A stretch of 47,241 nt of DNA from a virus, in IMG/VR virus record IMGVR_UViG_3300032893_000085, positions 1 through 47,241 of that record; one strand, 5' to 3'. The translations under genes were made by a program, and so were the position numbers. Under the pieces are notes generated by a model. That model was given only the letters and a program-made list of their open reading frames with translations, was not told where the DNA came from and did no database searches. Positions 12,271 through 36,630 of this stretch are shown piece after piece (positions within the stretch are counted from its first letter, which is position 1; each line of letters opens with the position of its first letter).

Positions 12271-12945
12271 CAGATGTATTAAGCAAGAGTCGTTAATTCT
12301 TGCTAAAGGTTTCTAACACACTATGAGCGAACTTGATTAGTTGTTCTTTAGTCGCACTCGCTTTCATTTGATTTGCAAGATGACTAATCACTTGTATGTT
12401 ATCTTTCGTGTAACCTTTTGAGTTATCTACTCTATCTAGAGCAGGACTATTAGGCTTTCCCCCTGATGATCCTTTGTGGACCTGAAGAGGGATATCGAGA
12501 TAAGGACATTTCTCTGGTATTATGATATCACTAGGAAGAATGTTAAACTCAAGACCTGACTTGTCGCACCGTTGTTTGGCGCGATTCCACATCTTGTATT
12601 TTACGTTATCCCAAGAAATTACTCTCTGAGAATTACACTCATGACAGAGGGTGACGCGCTTACTGGTGTGAGGATATACCTTGCCGCACTTAGTACATTC
12701 ACGCTCTGTCTCAGTTACATAATATCCTTCTCGATTATACACTACTTCCCTTTCTGTATGTCCCCATACAGCTTAGACTATATCATCATCTCTCGTACGA
12801 GAGAGCTAGGCGCTTCCGGGCACTTGCCCGTACTCCCTTTCGGGATAGTCGTTGGACCTTCAATGCCTTTCGGCAAAGCTTGGCTGCTGATTACGTGGTC
12901 TACGCTTCCCAGCAATTCACCTAGTTTTACTTCTGCTATCAATTA
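12271..12945 (-). other. Group I intron in the reductase gene
   Basis: A 675-base insertion with group I features on the minus strand. The 5-prime exon ends in U (TGT at 12946-12948) and the intron ends in G (12271); removing it restores CAA TTC TGT AAT CTT ACG, the conserved QFCNLT. Core elements are present: AATTGCTGGGAAGC (near 12905-12918), CAACGACTATCCC (P7 5-prime side, near 12842-12854) and GATGATATAGTCTAAGC (P7 3-prime side, near 12771-12787). The core occupies about 12745-12945, and an HNH gene occupies the rest. Exact ends follow from the exon reading and the U/G rule. Confidence 0.9.
12293..12742 (-). CDS. Intron-encoded HNH homing endonuclease
   Basis: A 149-residue protein within the group I intron, downstream of the ribozyme core. 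Two C-x2-C pairs near the N terminus (CTKCGK and CHECNS) form a zinc knuckle; the C-terminal half contains SPALDRVDNSKGYTKDNIQV followed by SHLANQMKASAT, the HNH-type motif shared with the genes at 16764 and 20886. The expected role is to cut intronless reductase alleles and drive intron homing. It is clearly AT-richer than the exons, in keeping with a mobile origin. Confidence 0.88.
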   Translation of the reverse strand: MYNREGYYVTETERECTKCGKVYPHTSKRVTLCHECNSQRVISWDNVKYKMWNRAKQRCDKSGLEFNILPSDIIIPEKCPYLDIPLQVHKGSSGGKPNSPALDRVDNSKGYTKDNIQVISHLANQMKASATKEQLIKFAHSVLETFSKN

Positions 12946-13974
12946 ACAGAATTGGTGTGGGCGGAGGATAATTTCAGAGCAAGGGTTTGTGCCGAAGTCA
13001 AAAGAGCTATCACGCCGTCCATTTCGCTTAGCGATTTGCTGACAAGCGTAACGACTGAAGATTCCGGGTTCACCTGACTTGCTGTCATATAGGTCTCTCC
13101 ACTTCTTCATAAAGAACGACGGATCAGGTCGACGGTTCTCATAGACGGCGCTGTTATTAGCAAGAGCACGATGACCGTAGCCTTCCCACCAAGCACCAGA
13201 CTTTGCCTTTGACATCCTGTCATCAGTGACATCGAAGAGCGAGATCATGGCTGAACGTCGTACTCCTCCTACTACGACTGTGTCACCAATCTTGCAGAGG
13301 ATGTCGTGGCATTCTAGTGAAGTGAGGCGGCGGCCCGCTGCTCCTCGAAAGACAGCAATACAGAACCTAAAGAGATCCTCAAGAGGGCCGGGTCCTGAAG
13401 CACGGCCACCAAAAGTCTTAAGACGCTCTCCGGCAGGACGAACGCCTGATGTGTCCCATCGAGGAATCTGACCTGCAATAAGGAGGGAGATGAGTTCTCG
13501 GAGAGATTTTGCCCATCCCTCTTTGCTGTCGGCGACTCGGATGGTTGTTCCGCTGTCTTCGAAAGTCTCAGAGATTCGGGGAAGCTGATTCGTGTACTTG
13601 CTTTCGACAGAGTATCCTACTCCTGTACCACACATCAAGATATAGAACGTCTCGTCAAAAGAACGAGGACTGTCGACAGGGAGATAGGCGCAGTTATAGG
13701 CGGCTACGTTACTCCGTTCGAGAGCAGGCCCAGCGGTCATAAGCGCCCGCATACTCGGCATGACTTCGAGGTTATAAATAGCCGAGTACATCTCGTCCCA
13801 TTCTTCCTTCGAAGCGATCTTACCTCGCTCGTCCTTGGAATAGAATTCAATTAGTCGAAAGACTGTCTCGTCCCAATCCTCCCGGCGCCCCGCTGAAGGG
13901 CGCCATCGGGCATAACGACTCTTGTAGATCATGCTTTCATAAATAGATGGGAAAGGATTTGAATCACTCGTCAA
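12946..13974 (-). CDS. nrdJ: Class II ribonucleotide reductase, exon 1
   Basis: The N-terminal 343 codons. Recognisable parts are PSMRALMTAGPALERSNVAA, NCAYLPVDSPRSF (first active-site cysteine), CGTGVGYSVE, VVVGGVRRSAMISLFD and NPCSEIILRPHQFC, in which the cysteine of NPC carries the thiyl radical and the following Glu acts in catalysis. The intron begins right after the last Cys codon, 11 residues past the radical cysteine. The frame starts at TTG 13974, overlapping the previous small gene by 11 bases; an ATG 14 codons later is possible. Together with exon 2 the spliced protein is about 642 residues. Confidence 0.9.
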
Positions 13975-23031: not shown

Positions 23032-23247
23032 TTATTCCAAGTCGTTGATTTCAACAGGGAATAAATTCTCATAGCAAGTCTCGTCATCGTACTCCTCTTC
23101 CGTCTCTACTTCCTCATCACCCTCTTCACCAAATGTCTCTGAGATAATACGGAGACACTCGGCACACGGATCCCACGCCATGTAACGAGGATCCCATTGG
23201 ATTTCGTCGGCTTGTAGTTCTTTATCACAGATATTGCAGCGCATCAT
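23032..23247 (-). CDS. Small acidic zinc-binding protein
   Basis: A 71-residue protein with CNICDKELQ and WDPCAECLRI, two cysteine pairs that could hold one zinc, then an acidic tail (EEGDEEVETEEEYDDETC). It is the last gene of the amidoligase cluster transcript, starting in an ATGA overlap with the ATP-grasp gene. The acidic tail suggests a DNA mimic or a binding partner of a basic protein. Function unknown. Confidence 0.65.
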   Translation of the reverse strand: MMRCNICDKELQADEIQWDPRYMAWDPCAECLRIISETFGEEGDEEVETEEEYDDETCYENLFPVEINDLE

Positions 23248-24017
23248 TGGAACTCCCGGAAGAATTGTACGTAATCAGTCACGGTACTTCCAGTAATGCC
23301 GGGAGCTGAGTTGATTTCGAGGACGTATGCCCTGTCGTCACGGGCATTGAAGACGACGTCTACCGCCCCAAAGTCGAGAGGAAAGCAATCGAAAGCCCGG
23401 CAAGCCACATCAATAACACACCGTGGAGGATTGACGTCGGCTCGGGCGTAGATAAACCCGTTCGCGAGGTTGCGAACAGACCAGTCGGGATTTTCATGTC
23501 CTAGATTCCTTGCTTTACGCTGCTGCGAGATCACTACTGTCGCTAGGTCGTCGTTGTCGTCTCGCAGTCGACCGACGTGGATCCGATATTCGTCTTGTTT
23601 TGGGATATAACGGGTGTAGAGAGGGGCCGGGACGAGTTCGTCTCTTGTATTAGCTATGACGATTCCTTCCCCTGAGTGACCTGCGAGGACGGTTCTACAG
23701 ACGATTCGTCCTCGTCGTTCGAGGGCGGAATCAGGTATGGAATCCCTGTCTGTCCAGAATTCGGGTATGATATCGGGGGCCACTCCATATACACGCCGGA
23801 AGAATTCCAGCTTATTAGACACAGAACGAATAGAACGGCCATTGAGGGCACGATCAAGTAGAGGATGTCCATTTGTATTCCCCCAGTTGATGATGACGTC
23901 TCCCGGACGCCCACGGTAACGAGAACCTTCGAGACGGAGGACACGCCCTCCTAGGGCCGTTGCCAGCTCCCGCGCTCCTGCCGAGCCTTGTCGATAAGGA
24001 ATGACTTTGTATGACAT
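23244..24017 (-). CDS. ATP-grasp ligase
   Basis: A 257-residue protein with an ATP-grasp core: a Gly-rich loop in RTVLAGHSGEGIVIA, a central YTRYIPKQDEYRIHV segment, and the metal-binding DFGAVDVVFNARDDRAYVLE then INSAPGITG, where Asp, Glu and Asn bind magnesium. This family joins a carboxylate to an amine through an acyl-phosphate. Its start overlaps the stop of the amidoligase gene (ATGA type), so the two probably act in one pathway. Substrate unknown; peptide or amino-acid ligation is the usual chemistry. Confidence 0.82.
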   Translation of the reverse strand: MSYKVIPYRQGSAGARELATALGGRVLRLEGSRYRGRPGDVIINWGNTNGHPLLDRALNGRSIRSVSNKLEFFRRVYGVAPDIIPEFWTDRDSIPDSALERRGRIVCRTVLAGHSGEGIVIANTRDELVPAPLYTRYIPKQDEYRIHVGRLRDDNDDLATVVISQQRKARNLGHENPDWSVRNLANGFIYARADVNPPRCVIDVACRAFDCFPLDFGAVDVVFNARDDRAYVLEINSAPGITGSTVTDYVQFFREFQ

Positions 24018-25228
24018 CAGAAGTCACCCCCTGCAATAGAAGGCGGTGTAGGAGTAATGGTCCACATACCTTCTTCTGGAAGATCCGGGCGATTAGTTCT
24101 TACGCGCGCCGGAAAAGGTGCCGGACGAGGGGCTGCTTCGTTGAAAGCTTGTCGGACTTGGTTCAGTACATTAACCATATCTTCGTTCGTAGTCGGCGCA
24201 GTTGTCTCGAAATCCGCGATGAGAATATCCGGCGTAGCTAGGGGATGATTACGTGCCAGACGAACACCAGCTTCCTGAAGATTTTGTCGCAATTTCGTCT
24301 TACGCGGTGTATCATCGAAGGGATGCCTTATCTCCCTCCGATTAATCTGTTCCCTTAGCGCGCCCCACGGAACAAAGAACGCCAACTCTTGGTAGTCACG
24401 GAACGAGTCCATACAGACGTCGTCAAAAGCCGTAGAAGCCTCCCTGAAAGCCGTCGAGAACTCTTCGAGATCTTCTCCACAGATCTCTCGAAGGAAGCCT
24501 GTGGGCGTCTTCTCAGACGCTCCACGACCGATTTCATCAGGGAGATATCGAATCGCCGTATCACGGAGACGAACGAGGAATCGGGCCCACGAGATTACTC
24601 GGTCAGGTTGGGTACAACCGTCGAGAGTTCTGAACTCAAATGAGCCGAAGTTCGAGAACGCAGCGAGATTCAACGCAGAGTACTTCGTCCCGTTGTCCCA
24701 CATGAATCGACCAGATTCGAGAGACGACCGCCAAGTATCGGGCAGCCAACCGTTCGTGTCCTTCGTAGTAAGACAGAACTGGTTGCTCTTACGGAGGCGC
24801 CCGGAATAGTTGACGGCGGCCTGCTCAAACAACCCCCAGAGACAGATCATTGAAGTCAATTCCGAGGGTTTCAACCCTTGGATATTGATATGGATGTGAG
24901 TACTTGTCCGGTTAGACGTCCGAATCACGGCTTTCTTCTCGGAGAGAGTCGTGTATAGATGTCGTACCAAACCGTCGACCTCTGGTTCAAAACAAGGCGC
25001 GGAGAGGACGTATTCGATCCCTCCACGCAGGGAGTCGTCGCGATGGGTGATCCACATCGCCTCAGATTTCTTCGCCTTGTACTCCATGAGTTGGGAGCCG
25101 TTGTACAAGTCACCTTCTAGTTCGATCTCGATACCGATATCACCGGGTGTGCTTCGCTCGATCAGAGGTCGGTTGAGTTTCAGATTTGGTAAAGGAGAAA
25201 TCGCCGACAATTCTTTCAGGAATTCCAT
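24017..25228 (-). CDS. Amidoligase family enzyme
   Basis: A 403-residue protein matching the phage/bacterial amidoligase group (a glutamine-synthetase-like fold). Visible signature pieces are DIGIEIELEG, WITHRDDSLRGGIEYVLSAP, STHIHINIQGL and NFGSFEFRTLDG, with the Glu and His residues expected to bind ATP and metal. Such enzymes form amide bonds and are usually found with ATP-grasp enzymes and glutamine amidotransferases, as here. Its ATG at 25228 directly follows the neighbour stop. The C-terminal 60 residues are Pro-rich. Substrate unknown. Confidence 0.82.
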   Translation of the reverse strand: MEFLKELSAISPLPNLKLNRPLIERSTPGDIGIEIELEGDLYNGSQLMEYKAKKSEAMWITHRDDSLRGGIEYVLSAPCFEPEVDGLVRHLYTTLSEKKAVIRTSNRTSTHIHINIQGLKPSELTSMICLWGLFEQAAVNYSGRLRKSNQFCLTTKDTNGWLPDTWRSSLESGRFMWDNGTKYSALNLAAFSNFGSFEFRTLDGCTQPDRVISWARFLVRLRDTAIRYLPDEIGRGASEKTPTGFLREICGEDLEEFSTAFREASTAFDDVCMDSFRDYQELAFFVPWGALREQINRREIRHPFDDTPRKTKLRQNLQEAGVRLARNHPLATPDILIADFETTAPTTNEDMVNVLNQVRQAFNEAAPRPAPFPARVRTNRPDLPEEGMWTITPTPPSIAGGDF

Positions 25229-25840
25229 TCATGCCTCCATAATCTCTTGGATACCAAGGCGTTGCTGCAACTCTTCCCTCAAGTAGAGAGTAGAAGGTCC
25301 GAGGTAAATACCTTTGTCGGTTACGTTACCGACGTGTCGTTTGTTCTTCCATAGTTGGTTACCTCCGTCATTCCCACGGACGAGGGCGAACTCGTGGTGA
25401 ATAGCGATTGGTTGAGCTTGTTGGACATGAGAGAGCGCCTCTCGCCAAGACGGGAACTTCCCTAGGACGCTATCGACGTAGTACTTCCCGAAGTACGTAA
25501 TCAAGTGTTCGTACGAGTGGTCCGATCGGTATATCTGACCCTGCTCGATATTCCAGACTTGGACGTTGCTTCGACAGTGGCCGTGAGTCACAGACCGAGC
25601 CGGGACACGGGTAAGCCAATACAATCTCCCGGGGACGTTGACGAAGCCGAGTTTCGGAAGTTCTCGGAAGTCTTTGAACCTGTCGCTTTCGAGATTGACG
25701 ACGAAGTTAATTCCAGTTTCGAGGTCTTTGACACGGACTTCTCGACCATCGATTGCGCCAAACTTAATAGGCTTGCCGTCGTACATGACGACGGAACTAT
25801 TCAGGCGTTGATTTGCCTGAGTAAGATCGTGCCAGAACAT
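25229..25840 (-). CDS. Hypothetical protein in amidoligase cluster
   Basis: A 203-residue protein between two amidoligase-type genes, packed without gaps on either side (its start overlaps the previous stop, and its stop abuts the next start). It begins MFWHDLTQANQRLNSSVVMY and includes a beta-rich N-terminal half (GREVRVKDLETGINFVVNLE) and a central YWLTRVPARSVTHGHCRSN segment with a His and a Cys that could be catalytic or metal-binding. I do not recognise it. Context suggests an accessory protein of the ligase pathway. Confidence 0.7.
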   Translation of the reverse strand: MFWHDLTQANQRLNSSVVMYDGKPIKFGAIDGREVRVKDLETGINFVVNLESDRFKDFRELPKLGFVNVPGRLYWLTRVPARSVTHGHCRSNVQVWNIEQGQIYRSDHSYEHLITYFGKYYVDSVLGKFPSWREALSHVQQAQPIAIHHEFALVRGNDGGNQLWKNKRHVGNVTDKGIYLGPSTLYLREELQQRLGIQEIMEA

Positions 25841-26709
25841 TACTTTGTCCTTTCTGCGATTGCCTTATCCAAGAGGGAGTGCGGGAACACCCAATTCCAC
25901 GCCATGTTCTTGTAGATACTGGTAGCGGCTTCGAGAGAACCGTCGATACCTTCTCGGACTTGTTCTTCTGATAGATGAAACCTATCAAAGAGTTTCTTAC
26001 TCGTCTTGTAGGTTTGGAGATGTGACACAGCGATACAAACCGACCGGGCGACGGCGATACGAGTCGACTTCTGATGAATCCAGATCGACGACGGCGTCCG
26101 ATATTCAAGACCATAAGGCTTCGGGCGAAATGAACCGGCCTTGCCGTACATCTGACGACGACGATCGTCGGGATCGAGGATACGGCACGGAATACCAAGA
26201 AAAAGATCGAGGACTTTGACGATGTCGGCACAGATCGCGATATACTCGGGGTCATCGGTAGGCATGTCTTTCGCCCAACCGAGATGGACATGCCCCCCAG
26301 TTGCTCGAAATTGGGCAGAGCCATCAGGTGCAGGATTCTTCTGCTCGGTATAGGCGTTCCAATCAGGATCGCAGCCGAGGACAAGGACTTCTTTCGGAAG
26401 ATCGGCGAGATAGTCCGGGTCGAAGTCGACAGTAGTCTCTTTCATGAAAGAAGCTCCCGAATTCCCTTCCTTGACGGCGGAATGCAGTTGCTTCATGACA
26501 TTGACAATACCCTGATTAAACCGCTCGTGCTCACCGATGGGGACTGGGTCGACATTGAACTCAGTCGCGAGACCGTCGACTTGGATCGCACCGCCTTCGA
26601 CAGGAAAGGGGTCTGTCTTTGTGCCCTTGATGAGATCGTGAGCCGAGATAGGTTTTCCCTTCGACTTGACGAAGATCTCGGGGTCGGCGCCGATTGTGAA
26701 GTTAACCAT
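25840..26709 (-). CDS. COOH-NH2 ligase (amidoligase type 2)-like
   Basis: A 289-residue protein with FTIGADPEIFVKSKGKPI near the N terminus, GAIQVDGLATEFNVDP, ATGGHVHLGW, and GSFRPKPYGLEYRTPSSIW, the signature of phage COOH-NH2 ligase type 2 proteins (glutamine-synthetase-like fold). The Glu and His residues in these motifs probably hold magnesium-ATP. ATG 26709 was chosen since it overlaps the amidotransferase stop and the longer frame lies over that gene. Together with the amidoligase two genes away, this gives the phage two different amide-forming enzymes. Confidence 0.8.
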   Translation of the reverse strand: MVNFTIGADPEIFVKSKGKPISAHDLIKGTKTDPFPVEGGAIQVDGLATEFNVDPVPIGEHERFNQGIVNVMKQLHSAVKEGNSGASFMKETTVDFDPDYLADLPKEVLVLGCDPDWNAYTEQKNPAPDGSAQFRATGGHVHLGWAKDMPTDDPEYIAICADIVKVLDLFLGIPCRILDPDDRRRQMYGKAGSFRPKPYGLEYRTPSSIWIHQKSTRIAVARSVCIAVSHLQTYKTSKKLFDRFHLSEEQVREGIDGSLEAATSIYKNMAWNWVFPHSLLDKAIAERTK

Positions 26710-28108
26710 GACGTACCTCTTCGTTATTTGTGATGTCTTTATCACATTCGTTACACACAAAATTCCACTGGTCAATAAACTCGTGGACGTCCTTCAAGTC
26801 ATTGTCTTGAGATTGACACCAAGCACAGGTACGACCTGTATTGGCAGCGAAATCGAACTCCGACCACTCAGCGCCGGTCTTTCTGTCGGTGATATACCAA
26901 ACGTCTCCGAACTTCCGAAGGTCGATATTCGGAGAGATATCAGCCGAGCCACTTCGATATCGCTGAAGACGCTCGTTTGATTGCCCTCCTTTGTTGGTTG
27001 TACGAGAGCCGATCAAAGTTAATACGGGACGGGAGGAAGAACTCTTGGCAGACTTCGTCGTAGAACTCGATGCCGTCGGAGAAACCGAGGACGTTACTGA
27101 GACCGTCCGAGAGGCGTCGGAGGTATCCCGAGTAGTTATCACCTCGCTCTGCGGCTTTGAGCTGGGCTTTGATAGACCGCTCGGAGGCTCGAGCGGTGCC
27201 GTGATCCCGGGGAGTTTCCCTAGGGCGTCGTCTATCCGAGTCCCAAGCTTTTCCAGAAGATATCGAGGAGTGCCTTCCCGAAAAGGGCTGGCGACGCCGC
27301 TCCCTCCTGTGACTTCTGGACCTGACGATCCTTGCCTTCGCCAGTGGGTGTTAGAGTACGTAGTCGTACCCGTAAAATTTCCGGCACGCTTAGCCCCTTC
27401 GATAGTCTTTGGCGCCGTAGCCTTGAAACCGTCGGCTTTGCTGACTTCGAACGACCAGAGTTCGTTCTCGGCCAATCTACAAGTATCGAAGCCTGTGTCG
27501 AGTTCGGCAAGCTTGATCTGGCGTCCGACGACGCCGTGCAACATCCAGGGTTCAGACGCCCAGAACATCGTCTTCTTGTCGACAGACCAAGCGAAATGGA
27601 GAGGGCGTTCGTCATTTCGGAGGAAATTCAAAGTGTTATTCCGACGATCCCACCAGTTCAACGTCCAAGCCCCGGCGACTTCAGGGATGACTTCTTCGAC
27701 GCTACGTTCACTGATCTGGGAGAGAAGCCAGTCGCTGTCGACTTTGAACCCGTCGGCAGATTTGTCCCGACGCCAGCCGAATTCGAGAGTTCCGTTATGG
27801 ACCCCGATGATATTCTCGTGATCGAATGGGTGGGCGTTCTGGTGGGTATTCTCGCCTACCGTTTTCGACCGACAGTGGCCAATCAGAATCTTGCTGTTGT
27901 ATCGATCGACTGCACGATCCCAAGACTTCAGTTCGAAGAGCCGGTCAGGCGTTCCCACCGTCTTGGCCCATCCTACCGAGTTGTCCATGCCAATGCTGAT
28001 CGCACCCGTGGCGTCACGGCCACGAACCTGACAGGCGATGAGCATGTCCTTGAAGACTTCTCTTTCTTTGACGTTTATATTGCCAGCAAGACCGACTATC
28101 CCGCACAT
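26702..28108 (-). CDS. Class II glutamine amidotransferase with C-terminal zinc ribbon
   Basis: A 468-residue protein. The start MCGIVGLAG exposes Cys2 as the N-terminal nucleophile once Met is removed; RGRDATGAISIG, IGHCRSKTVGENTHQNAHPF and VHNGTLEFG are the other class II glutaminase motifs. Residues about 280-400 are Ser/Thr-rich and probably a flexible linker (TVSVTSSVSPTASSSTTKSA), and the C terminus has CAWCQSQ and CNECDKD, a zinc ribbon not usual in this family. It would release ammonia from glutamine for the neighbouring ligases. ATG 28108 was chosen over 28114 to place Cys second. Confidence 0.85.
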   Translation of the reverse strand: MCGIVGLAGNINVKEREVFKDMLIACQVRGRDATGAISIGMDNSVGWAKTVGTPDRLFELKSWDRAVDRYNSKILIGHCRSKTVGENTHQNAHPFDHENIIGVHNGTLEFGWRRDKSADGFKVDSDWLLSQISERSVEEVIPEVAGAWTLNWWDRRNNTLNFLRNDERPLHFAWSVDKKTMFWASEPWMLHGVVGRQIKLAELDTGFDTCRLAENELWSFEVSKADGFKATAPKTIEGAKRAGNFTGTTTYSNTHWRRQGSSGPEVTGGSGVASPFREGTPRYLLEKLGTRIDDALGKLPGITAPLEPPSGLSKPSSKPQSEVITTRDTSDASRTVSVTSSVSPTASSSTTKSAKSSSSRPVLTLIGSRTTNKGGQSNERLQRYRSGSADISPNIDLRKFGDVWYITDRKTGAEWSEFDFAANTGRTCAWCQSQDNDLKDVHEFIDQWNFVCNECDKDITNNEEVRHG

Positions 28109-28137
28109 TATCATTTCCTTTCAAATAGTTAGCAAAG

Positions 28138-34002: not shown

Positions 34003-34674
34003 TTAAGCCGCGATGGCCGGACGGATATCCGACAGACCGTCGGCAGGGGCGGGCGCGGGCGTTTCGATCTTGTCCGTGTCATTTTCAGCCGAGGCGGGCG
34101 TTTCGACACGCTCGAATGTCAGGCCCGAAAGCTTGACGACCATGGCCTTGGCCGAAGGGACGTCTTCGGGCTTGATCTTGTCATCAGCGATTTTCTTTTC
34201 GATCGTGCTCGAAAGACGGGATACGAGAGCAAGAAGTTTCTTCCAATCATATTCTTCCTGCGACCGCTTTTCTTCGACGACTTCCCAGAAGGGAATCGTG
34301 TTCGCCGCCTCGATATCCCACCACGTGAGTTTTTCGAGATTGCCGTCGGCTTTTTGTTCCGCCGTCATTTCTTCACGAACGAGCGCCTTGTATTTCGGAT
34401 CGTATTCGCACTTGCCGGACTGTTCGACGACACGGATGGGCGTGAACTTCTTGAACCACGCGATCATTTGCGTGCCCCACGAGCCGGGCATGGCACGGAC
34501 GAGCTCGATGGCGAGTGTGCAATCACCCGTGCCCGAACAGTCCGTGATGTCTGCCGGAGCGGCATGACGAAAGATCATCATGCCGATTTCGTGGGCGTGT
34601 TGGCGCAGGGCGTCGCGCGATGTCGTGAACTTCGCAATCTGCGCAACGATTTGTTTTTTCGTAATCTTAGTCAT
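34003..34674 (-). CDS. Hypothetical early protein, 223 residues
   Basis: Begins MTKITKKQIVAQIAKFTTSR with AAGGATAAACC upstream. It contains DITDCSGTGDCTLAIELVRA, FTPIRVVEQSGKCEYDPKYK, TIPFWEVVEEKRSQEEYDWK and an Ala/Pro-rich tail (ETPAPAPADGLSDIRPAIAA). The body is helical with a central sheet, and the tail is flexible. Base composition is richer in G+C and uses codons such as TCG and GCG more than neighbours, hinting at different ancestry. Early position suggests host takeover. No family recognised. Confidence 0.7.
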   Translation of the reverse strand: MTKITKKQIVAQIAKFTTSRDALRQHAHEIGMMIFRHAAPADITDCSGTGDCTLAIELVRAMPGSWGTQMIAWFKKFTPIRVVEQSGKCEYDPKYKALVREEMTAEQKADGNLEKLTWWDIEAANTIPFWEVVEEKRSQEEYDWKKLLALVSRLSSTIEKKIADDKIKPEDVPSAKAMVVKLSGLTFERVETPASAENDTDKIETPAPAPADGLSDIRPAIAA

Positions 34675-34730
34675 AGGTTTATCCTTCACAGAAGGTGGAC
34701 CATACCACCGAATGCCCCTGTAGTTGTTGA

Positions 34731-35072
34731 TTAGACAAAACCCCTTGCCTTGCGGGCGAGGGCACGTTCGGCACGTTCTTTGTCAAGCCGACGCTTGTCG
34801 ACTTCCGATATTGCCGCTTGCCGCTGGTGGAAGTTGTATCGGCCTTTGTTCTTACGCTTGCCATTCAAGGCCGACTTGCTCTTGTGGAGCTTGGCGAGGT
34901 ATTCCTTTTCGGCTTGGGTGAGGAAGGGTCCAGTGTCTTCGACTTCGATGATTTTGGCAGGGATGAAATGCCTCTTGCCGCCTCTTGTCTCGACACGGCC
35001 AAGTCTCTCTCGGACTCGTGTTTGCGGAGATACGCGAGTATACGTCGGATATTCTTGGGATGAGTAAGCCAT
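34731..35072 (-). CDS. Basic early protein, first gene after the structured RNA
   Basis: A 113-residue basic protein, MAYSSQEYPTYTRVSPQTRV, then RHFIPAKIIEVEDTGPFLTQ, AKLHKSKSALNGKRKNKGRY and ERAERALARKARGFV. The C-terminal half is rich in Lys and Arg and is probably helical, suitable for nucleic-acid binding. GGGAAGC precedes the ATG. It is the first protein gene of the minus-strand early transcript, directly downstream of the candidate large RNA. No family recognised. Confidence 0.7.
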   Translation of the reverse strand: MAYSSQEYPTYTRVSPQTRVRERLGRVETRGGKRHFIPAKIIEVEDTGPFLTQAEKEYLAKLHKSKSALNGKRKNKGRYNFHQRQAAISEVDKRRLDKERAERALARKARGFV

Positions 35073-35089
35073 GCGTTGCTTCCCTACTG

Positions 35090-35660
35090 TGTTGGGACAG
35101 GGGCAACCGCTGATATGGTCCGTAGACCTGCCTAGTCTCGCTCCCTATCACTAGGGCCGCCCTACTCACTCGTAACAGTCTCGAAAGACTGCCAGTAGCT
35201 TTTGAGCCGACTAGGCTACGTGGCGTCATTCGGGGGGCTTATTCCCGTTGCCAACGTAAGGGACGTTGTAAGTGCCACACGGTATTTCACCGACAAGGCC
35301 CGTTGCTAGCAGACCTTGCGCACCTTAGGCTTTGCGTGATGATACCAGTCCTTTCGACCCTGATACCAGAGCGACGCCACAAGCCCGCCGTTTGGAGCAT
35401 GACCTAGGTATTCTGTCCTACTTCCCTTAGACGTTGCCGCCTTCGGCAAGAGACCAACCCGTGTGGCCATTCCTGATGTCACAGAGCAAGCTCTGCTCGT
35501 GTTTTGACCCACGCAAGACATGACATAGCCATGTCAAGCACGATCAAGTGACCGGAGAACTAGAGCCGTGGTCCATCCGAGCCGGGCCGTCTCTCGATGT
35601 CCCCAGCTTACTCCCCTCTGCCGGGTAATCAACCAAAATCTTTCGTTTGTTTTCAATGGG
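35090..35660 (-). ncRNA. Candidate large structured non-coding RNA
   Basis: About 570 bases without a convincing gene but with dense short perfect hairpins. Stems include TGACAT/ATGTCA (35521-35536), TTGCCG/CGGCAA with a CCTT loop (35434-35449), CAGAG/CTCTG (35482-35495), CAACGT/ACGTTG (35252-35268) and CAGTCT/AGACTG (35176-35191), the last giving a UUCG tetraloop on the minus strand. GTGTGG (35461-35466) can pair with CCACAC (35275-35280) over a distance. Frames on the minus strand read as Arg/Trp-rich nonsense. It lies where the early transcript should begin. Size and phage setting recall the ornate large RNAs GOLLD and ROOL, but I cannot confirm membership. Confidence 0.6.
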
Positions 35661-35687
35661 TTATTAAGTAGCATTCTGCAACCTACC

Positions 35688-35890
35688 GGAACAGACAGAG
35701 AACAAACGCCGTGTTCCCTGTTCGGCCCCTGTTCGGTCATGGTTTGTTCTCTTCCGTGTCGCGGGCCAAGACTCCCGCGCGTAGTTCCCGGTGTGTTCTG
35801 GGAATGTTCACGTTGCGTTCAGGCCGGTCGGGGGGGGGGCATGGGACGGGGTTGGTATACGATCGCTATCCAGACCCTCTCGTTTGTTCT
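35688..35890. other. GTTC-rich intergenic tract with G10 run
   Basis: No gene seen. GTTC occurs eight times on the plus strand between 35712 and 35888 and GAAC twice more at the left edge, several as TGTTCGG or TTTGTTCT. A run of ten G lies at 35830-35839. The spacing is irregular, so a protein-binding cluster is only a possibility. The early minus-strand promoter should be near here, but no strong match to consensus was found. Confidence 0.5.
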
Positions 35891-35987
35891 ACAAAAAATT
35901 CAACATTCGAGATTTGCCATTTTAAGCCCCGTACAGCGCAGGAGACCCCTCGAAGCTACCCCAATCGCCCCCGGACCCTTGTTTCGT

Positions 35988-36017
35988 CTCTAAGGTACCT
36001 TAAAATCGATTTTAGAG
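35988..36017. promoter_or_regulatory. Nested palindromes (candidate operator)
   Basis: Two overlapping perfect palindromes, TAAGGTACCTTA (35991-36002) and TAAAATCGATTTTA (36001-36014), enclosed by CTCTAA and TTAGAG. The whole 30-base block is an excellent candidate for a dimeric regulator binding site between the divergent transcription units. Confidence 0.6.
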
Positions 36018-36107
36018 GCTATTGACAACTAGGGCTCACGTTGTTCGCCCCAGGACGCAAAGATACCTGCCTGATATAAACTTTCTTTCTGTCTTTGATT
36101 TTTTCTC

Positions 36108-36136
36108 TTGACAAAACCTTCTTTCTATGATACCCT
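36108..36136 (+). promoter_or_regulatory. Possible sigma70-like promoter upstream of AT-rich tract
   Basis: Plus strand: TTGACA (36108-36113), 17-base spacer, TACCCT (36131-36136), followed by AT-rich DNA. The -35 box is perfect and the -10 is weak. It could transcribe through the candidate origin toward the terminase genes. Confidence 0.5.
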
Positions 36137-36310
36137 ATATACTATTATATAATATATAATATCTACTAGATAGATTCTAGATATCCTCTAAGTAGCTATC
36201 TACTGTTAACTGTTAACTGTTATTATCTAATATCTATCTAGAGGATATCTAGAGACTATTTTAAGACTATTTTAAGACTATTTTAAGACTATCTTGATAT
36301 ATCCTGATAT
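36131..36310. other. AT-rich repeat tract, candidate replication origin
   Basis: A very AT-rich region. It holds a 15-bp perfect inverted repeat (36176-36190 with 36239-36253, containing TCTAGATATCCTCTA), three tandem ACTGTTA units (36202-36222), and about 3.7 tandem copies of the 11-base unit AGACTATTTTA (36253-36296). Lying between divergent early and late blocks and beside promoters, it is a plausible origin where DNA unwinds. No gene is visible here. Confidence 0.55.
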
Positions 36311-36386
36311 TATAAGACTAACCCTTTTCTTTCATTTAAAAACAACAACATAGAGAGTTTTCTTTCCCGTCCTATTAAAATACTGC

Positions 36387-36415
36387 TTGACAGAAACACC
36401 GAATCGTGGTATAAT
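36387..36415 (+). promoter_or_regulatory. Sigma70-like promoter for virion genes
   Basis: Plus strand: TTGACA (36387-36392), 17-base spacer ending TCGTGG, TATAAT (36410-36415). It shares the CGTGG-TATAATAT context with the minus-strand promoter at 22977-23004. It lies 42 bases before the first virion-strand gene. Confidence 0.88.
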
Positions 36416-36456
36416 ATGTTATAGGATAGGGAAGTTCTTATCTAAGAAGGATTACA

Positions 36457-36630
36457 ATGGCTAATTGGATTGCTAAAGCAACAAAAAACAAAGGCGGTCT
36501 TCACAAATCTCTTGGGATTCCTCAAGGGAAGAAGATTCCTGCGTCCAAGATTGAGAAGGCCGCCTCGAAGGGTGGCAAAGTAGGCAAGCAGGCACGTCTT
36601 GCAGAAACTCTTTCAAAGATGAAGAAATAA
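36457..36630 (+). CDS. Small basic protein 1 before terminase
   Basis: A 57-residue basic protein, MANWIAKATKNKGGLHKSLG, then GKKIPASKIEKAASKGGKVG and the end TLSKMKK. AAGAAGG is well placed before the ATG. Small Lys-rich proteins of this kind (FIPQGKKIP region) occur ahead of terminase genes in many podoviruses and may bind DNA. Its stop overlaps the next ATG (TAATGG). Confidence 0.65.
   Translation: MANWIAKATKNKGGLHKSLGIPQGKKIPASKIEKAASKGGKVGKQARLAETLSKMKK

Follow-up and report, generated by a model that had tools for sequence, protein, structure and literature searches.

A long untranslated RNA with an elaborate predicted fold is encoded on the minus strand of the virus record IMGVR_UViG_3300032893_000085 (47,241 bases; the whole of this stretch is referred to as the window), and its 3' end is predicted to pair over a long distance with the 5'UTR of the conserved early gene phrog_1448. 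The existence of the structured leader RNA and of the long-range helix is held with high confidence, and the fold and strand of the RNA are shown as far as sequence comparison can show them. Taken as a whole, the reading of this RNA as a structured early leader that is processed by RNase III at the helix and released is given about an even chance.

Genome context of the RNA

From ~37 kb onwards, the plus strand carries the genes for the terminase, portal, scaffold and major head protein, and the replication genes are located on the minus strand. The structured RNA sits in the divergent region between these structural and replication genes and is followed along the minus strand by an ORF for a 113-aa basic protein and then by the phrog_1448 gene. 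The promoter of the divergent structural side (TTGACA-17-TATAAT, 12/12 matches) was located at 36387–36415 on the plus strand. ORF-poor DNA was found at the equivalent place in relatives identified by their terminase and phrog_1448 proteins.

Elsewhere in the genome, genes resembling those for amidoligase, COOH-NH2 ligase, glutamine amidotransferase and S6 glutaminyl transferase are clustered at 23244–28114 (minus strand), which is unusual for a podovirus of such size and perhaps represents a peptide or surface modification set. A group I intron (12754–12955, minus strand; E 1e-18 in the Rfam search) adjoins an exon of a class II ribonucleotide reductase (12943–13974), and the ORF downstream of it (12293–12742) gave no Pfam match.

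Identification and limits of the structured RNA

The first-pass annotation had proposed that a large and ornately structured minus-strand RNA heads the early region (35090–35660), with at least five perfect hairpins of 5–6 bp, and this proposal was borne out by an excess of hairpins together with covariation. Counting perfect Watson-Crick stems of at least 5 bp with loops of 3–8 nt, nine hairpins were found on the minus strand of 35090–35660 (2.76 expected), a number reached by none of 500 dinucleotide shuffles; five of the nine have 6 bp (0.73 expected, 1/500 shuffles). One of these five is the UUCG-type hairpin noted in the first pass, CAGUCU-UUCG-AGACUG at 35176–35191 (minus strand), and a further hairpin, CCCUA-GUGA-UAGGG, lies at 35143–35156 (minus strand). 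As had also been noted, the GC content of the RNA (0.553) is higher than that of the neighbouring AT-rich tract (0.26 at 36060–36340), and the frames across it read as non-protein, holding only short ORFs, none of them conserved. A conserved reading frame, named beforehand as one of the observations that would refute an RNA, was not found within it, and most indels in its alignment with the homologue described below are not multiples of three. Minimum free energy z-scores were -2.25 for the minus strand and -1.42 for the plus strand of the window RNA, compared with -4.16 (sense) and -1.76 (antisense) for the homologue. The RNA is better delimited as ~35098–35600 (minus strand, 5' end at 35600, 3' end at 35098), a core that is supported by homology, by consensus folding and by a coding control. 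Its 5' limit is based on a conserved block beginning at 35599, its 3' limit on the strand of the long-range helix at 35098–35121.

Conservation of the fold in a related phage

A search with the neighbouring 113-aa protein retrieved a relative, L002 (IMG/VR contig 3300002301_000027), that clearly encodes a homologous RNA (nhmmer E about 1e-167) and in which, upon the covariation check called for by the first-pass annotation, the fold proved to be kept through sequence change. The central multibranched domain (35214–35391, minus strand; 178 nt), closed by GUGGCGUC/GACGCCAC, comprises 47 pairs, 100% of which are formed in both phages without a single broken pair. It contains 11 both-sided compensations, as opposed to 0–2 when partners are slid by 1–3 columns, a comparison that favours the structure because the latter was derived from the consensus. 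Two hairpins outside this domain have been exchanged for others: L002 carries GAUAC-GCAA-GUAUC at the site of the UUCG hairpin, which amounts to a UUCG-to-GCAA tetraloop swap, and GAGGU-AUU-ACCUC in place of CCCUA-GUGA-UAGGG, with conserved flanks. Consensus folding of the pair with alifold yielded z-scores of -6.9 for the minus strand and -3.7 for the plus strand, compared with -0.2 for the adjacent phrog_1448 gene as a coding control. When structures predicted from single sequences were cross-scored, 40–56% of the changed pairs were kept, which is not clearly above slid controls, with 9–16 both-sided kept pairs versus 0–12 after sliding. Single-sequence prediction and alignment are both unreliable in the variable arms, and given this weak cross-test, the detailed pairing proposed for the outer arms is tentative. 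A helix that sequesters the start codon in the window fold was not evident in L002.

The sequence type of the window RNA was found in the window and L002 only, and two sequences are too few for R-scape-grade statistics. DNA-pattern scans of IMG/VR and GTDB genomes gave no member beyond the L002 contig, the other matches (L119 among them) being rejected as chance, mostly coding. A covariance model of the central domain, run over 36 loci, recovered the same two phages, and another protein-based scan, for which the phrog_1448 protein was the sole query, returned no additional member of this type.

A long-range helix between the RNA and the phrog_1448 5'UTR

The last 24 nt of the RNA (35098–35121, minus strand) form 22 pairs with 34697–34720 (minus strand), a segment of the 5'UTR just ahead of the phrog_1448 start, and the small ORF for the basic protein is looped out between the two strands. 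Long-range complementarity had rightly been noted, except that its main instance extends beyond 35090–35660, to the segment at 34697–34720. The best 22-mer pairing score was 44, compared with no more than 32 in shuffles, and folding of a 981-nt transcript in silico predicted a pairing probability of about 1.0 at 21/24 positions. The helix was likewise predicted with a probability of about 1 for the full L002 transcript, whereas in three of nine other phages (L094, L092 and L095) folding prefers competing local hairpins.

A helix of 20–25 bp between the 3' end of the leader and the phrog_1448 5'UTR recurs in 13 phages, and its sequence differs completely between lineages. For each 5' strand, the best partner is its own 3' strand or the one from a near-identical sister phage, with energies of -34.6 to -47.0 kcal/mol for the own partner and usually -5 to -30 kcal/mol (few cells to -38) between lineages. 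The strands are 209–377 nt apart in 12 of the 13 phages, mostly with a small ORF between them, and 38 nt apart in Caulobacter phage Cd1. An internal 1x1 mismatch is present in most lineages. These helices were delineated by eye following an automatic scan, which did not separate those of L091, Cd1 and Brevundimonas phage BC from shuffles; in L098, L067, L029 and tf, no such helix was found. Comparison between phages shows that the helix is conserved despite sequence change. Two helical turns, pairing that persists while the sequence varies freely, and the 1x1 mismatch of most lineages are the features expected of an RNase III site. The 20–25 pairs seen in the 13 phages correspond to a helix of roughly two turns between transcript segments.

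Sequences flanking the RNA

The small ORF in the loop (34731–35072, minus strand) encodes 113 aa with a pI of 10.6 and is 74% identical in L002; its product gave no Pfam or PHROG match. The corresponding products are strongly basic in the window, L002, L042, tf and LKA1, and acidic in Acinetobacter phages. In L034 (1723–1911) and L050 (1261–1452; both in coordinates of the extracted regions), different small ORFs occupy an equal position in leaders that otherwise align, as if they had been exchanged within one loop. The phrog_1448 gene (34003–34674, minus strand; about 223 aa) belongs to PHROG family 1448. Its AlphaFold model matched no PDB fold, and the fold search gave no function.

Upstream of the RNA, four GAAC units with an 11-bp phase were detected at 35784–35820 (minus strand; GTTC-N7-GTTC on the other strand). 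Phased GAAC-N7-GAAC direct repeats between the promoter side and the RNA were also seen at 35720–35734 (minus strand) and in L002 (40–87). Over 15 leader regions, 32 GAAC-GAAC pairs at a distance of 11 were counted, compared with 0–6 at other distances, except for 11 at the multiple 22. GTTC-N7-GTTC is the LexA box of Caulobacter (PMC12700426), and the array matches this alphaproteobacterial motif. The repeats may mediate host SOS control of the early genes or, alternatively, serve as iterons of a phage protein. A run of ~10 G (poly-C on the RNA strand) is located at 35827–35836, and the L002 contig terminates in a similar poly-C tract at the equivalent relative place.

Leaders ahead of phrog_1448 in other phages

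Homologues of phrog_1448 occur in hundreds of isolated phages, and those inspected have long upstream regions, for the most part without annotation. The structured leaders always lie ahead of this gene, directly or via a small ORF; they were seen in 155 phages of Acinetobacter, 25 of P. putida and in phages of Caulobacter and Brevundimonas. For the leaders of Cd1, BC and Brevundimonas phage Babayka, the alifold z-score was -8.1, with 20 compensatory pairs versus 9.9 (max 13) in shuffles. Nine aligned Acinetobacter leaders (of 155) gave z-scores of -8.0 (sense) and -5.8 (antisense), with 5 compensatory pairs versus 0.4 (max 1), and end in a hairpin of roughly 19 bp in place of the long-range helix. 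Eight aligned P. putida leaders (of 25) showed 12 compensatory pairs versus 0.6 (max 2), the antisense strand folding as well as the sense strand (z -4.5 and -3.5, respectively). For type B (L034/L050) and type C (L042/L046), the z-scores were -8.5 (sense) and -1.9 (antisense), and -5.1 and -2.3, respectively; these energies exceed those of shuffles, whereas the compensatory counts alone do not. The L092/L095 leader has an unsupported fold (z -2.1), and only its helix is supported. Types B and C are joined by sequence through L091, and for the window type the ties to B and C are limited to position, helix, small ORF and GAAC arrays. Similarly, the leaders of Acinetobacter Friunavirus, P. putida PpuP and Caulobacter/Brevundimonas phages resemble the window RNA in being structured and preceding phrog_1448, or a small ORF plus phrog_1448, but share no detectable sequence similarity with it. 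Among the leader loci scanned with Rfam, none gave an RNA family match within the leader, and a literature search, mostly without subscription papers, retrieved no description of such leaders. Within the Acinetobacter leader, the opposite strand carries two proteins annotated as hypothetical (L110, 1526–1621; L129, 152–337), which are probably spurious calls in non-coding RNA.

Proposed mechanism and alternative explanations

We propose that the RNA constitutes the 5' leader of the early minus-strand transcript, that it would be transcribed first in infection and that it folds elaborately. Its last 24 nt form about two turns of helix with the phrog_1448 5'UTR, leaving the small ORF in the loop, and RNase III-type cleavage at this helix would release a discrete RNA and provide the downstream messages with new ends. 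Once released, the RNA might exert an effect in early infection, the small basic protein being a candidate partner. The probabilities for and against release by RNase III are judged to be about balanced, and an action of the leader in trans is suggested only tentatively.

The main rival, since both helix strands also have local partners, is a leader that acts solely in cis and is never released, either by antitermination of the host RNA polymerase over the early operon, as in HK022 put or boxA-like systems, or by switching phrog_1448 translation, with the 3' strand pairing alternatively with the RNA or with a local CCUAGCAA-nnn-GCUAGG just before phrog_1448. This possibility, which we consider doubtful though not slight, is favoured by the place of the RNA at the start of the early transcript, by its constant linkage to phrog_1448, by the local hairpins that win in silico in L094, L092 and L095, and by the precedent of the HK022 put RNA (PMC9378689), which is, however, far smaller than the window RNA. 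BoxA-like cores (YGCTCTTTA) were seen in L002, L092 and Kurenuki, these three leaders only, and are missing from most others, the window included. A multimeric particle, with the RNA self-assembling into a cage as in the RNA-only complexes of GOLLD and ROOL, would agree with the ~500-nt length, the ornate multibranched fold and the phage origin; it is improbable in view of the lacking Rfam match, the lack of a tRNA in the window and the arrangement, in which the RNA leads an operon and is not a separate gene beside a tRNA island (compare PMC12286853).

The AT-rich tract and phased GAAC repeats that adjoin the RNA could also point to an element that functions as DNA, for example a replication origin folding as single-stranded DNA, in which case the pairing would not concern RNA. 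The chance of this is very small, as the transcribed strand gives the stronger fold signal in the window/L002 pair, types B and C and the Acinetobacter leaders (not in P. putida), and the minus strand contains G-U pairs. A self-splicing intron or ORF-bearing mobile RNA, suggested by the ORF within the helix-closed loop and the group I intron elsewhere in the genome, is largely refuted and has the faintest probability: no exon is interrupted, the syntenic position is constant between phages, and no intron model matches at the RNA, though the search finds the other intron at 1e-18.

Compared with these alternatives, processing by RNase III and release of the early leader is the reading we prefer. 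Its generalization to a widespread, undescribed superclass of large RNAs, which many podoviruses would make as their first product in infection, invariably ahead of phrog_1448, and which RNase III would free for an action in trans on the host together with a small basic protein, is rather unlikely to hold in full. There are few large phage RNAs whose role is unknown, and they come with hosts that are difficult to handle. Should the leaders form one functional class, easily grown phages (P. putida KT2440, Caulobacter) would give joint access to transcript, processing, partner and knock-out phenotype, and phrog_1448, an early protein family with no assigned function, would gain a role. Leaders of phrog_1448 are mostly unannotated and sometimes covered by spurious hypothetical ORFs.

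Comparison with known RNAs

The RNA had been suggested to belong to the GOLLD/ROOL type or, alternatively, to a new class of large phage RNA. Upon scanning of 34650–36500 with cmscan, no Rfam family matched the RNA at E≤5, and three chance sub-threshold matches lay elsewhere; GOLLD/ROOL membership is therefore not supported. At the Rfam gathering score, the whole window contained nothing but the unrelated group I intron, and permissive and gathering scans overall returned only this intron, tRNAs and chance sub-threshold matches. A group I intron at the RNA itself was considered and rejected (no catalytic core match; small ORF and phrog_1448 ORF intact). Of the two suggestions, a new class is the one that survives, and this large structured phage RNA may form a class of its own.

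Like the window RNA, GOLLD is large, ornate and phage-borne. Many RNAs of the GOLLD type are longer than 800 nt and located close to tRNA islands (PMC12286853), whereas the window RNA comprises ~500 nt, forms an early operon leader closed against a downstream 5'UTR and does not show the tRNA setting described for GOLLD and ROOL (PMC12286853). ROOL is similar in size, ornate and phage-borne, but its model does not match and its genomic setting is different. HK022 put is an antitermination leader RNA (PMC9378689) and, like the window RNA, a structured element at the head of an early transcript. It is small, however, and has neither a long-range helix nor a looped ORF; antitermination is known for put, and the window leader is compared with it by position and fold only. 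T7-like early transcripts carry RNase III processing sites, which resemble the window helix in providing a helix of roughly two turns between early messages. The window helix differs from them in being long-range in most lineages, in spanning an ORF and in being joined to a large conserved RNA.
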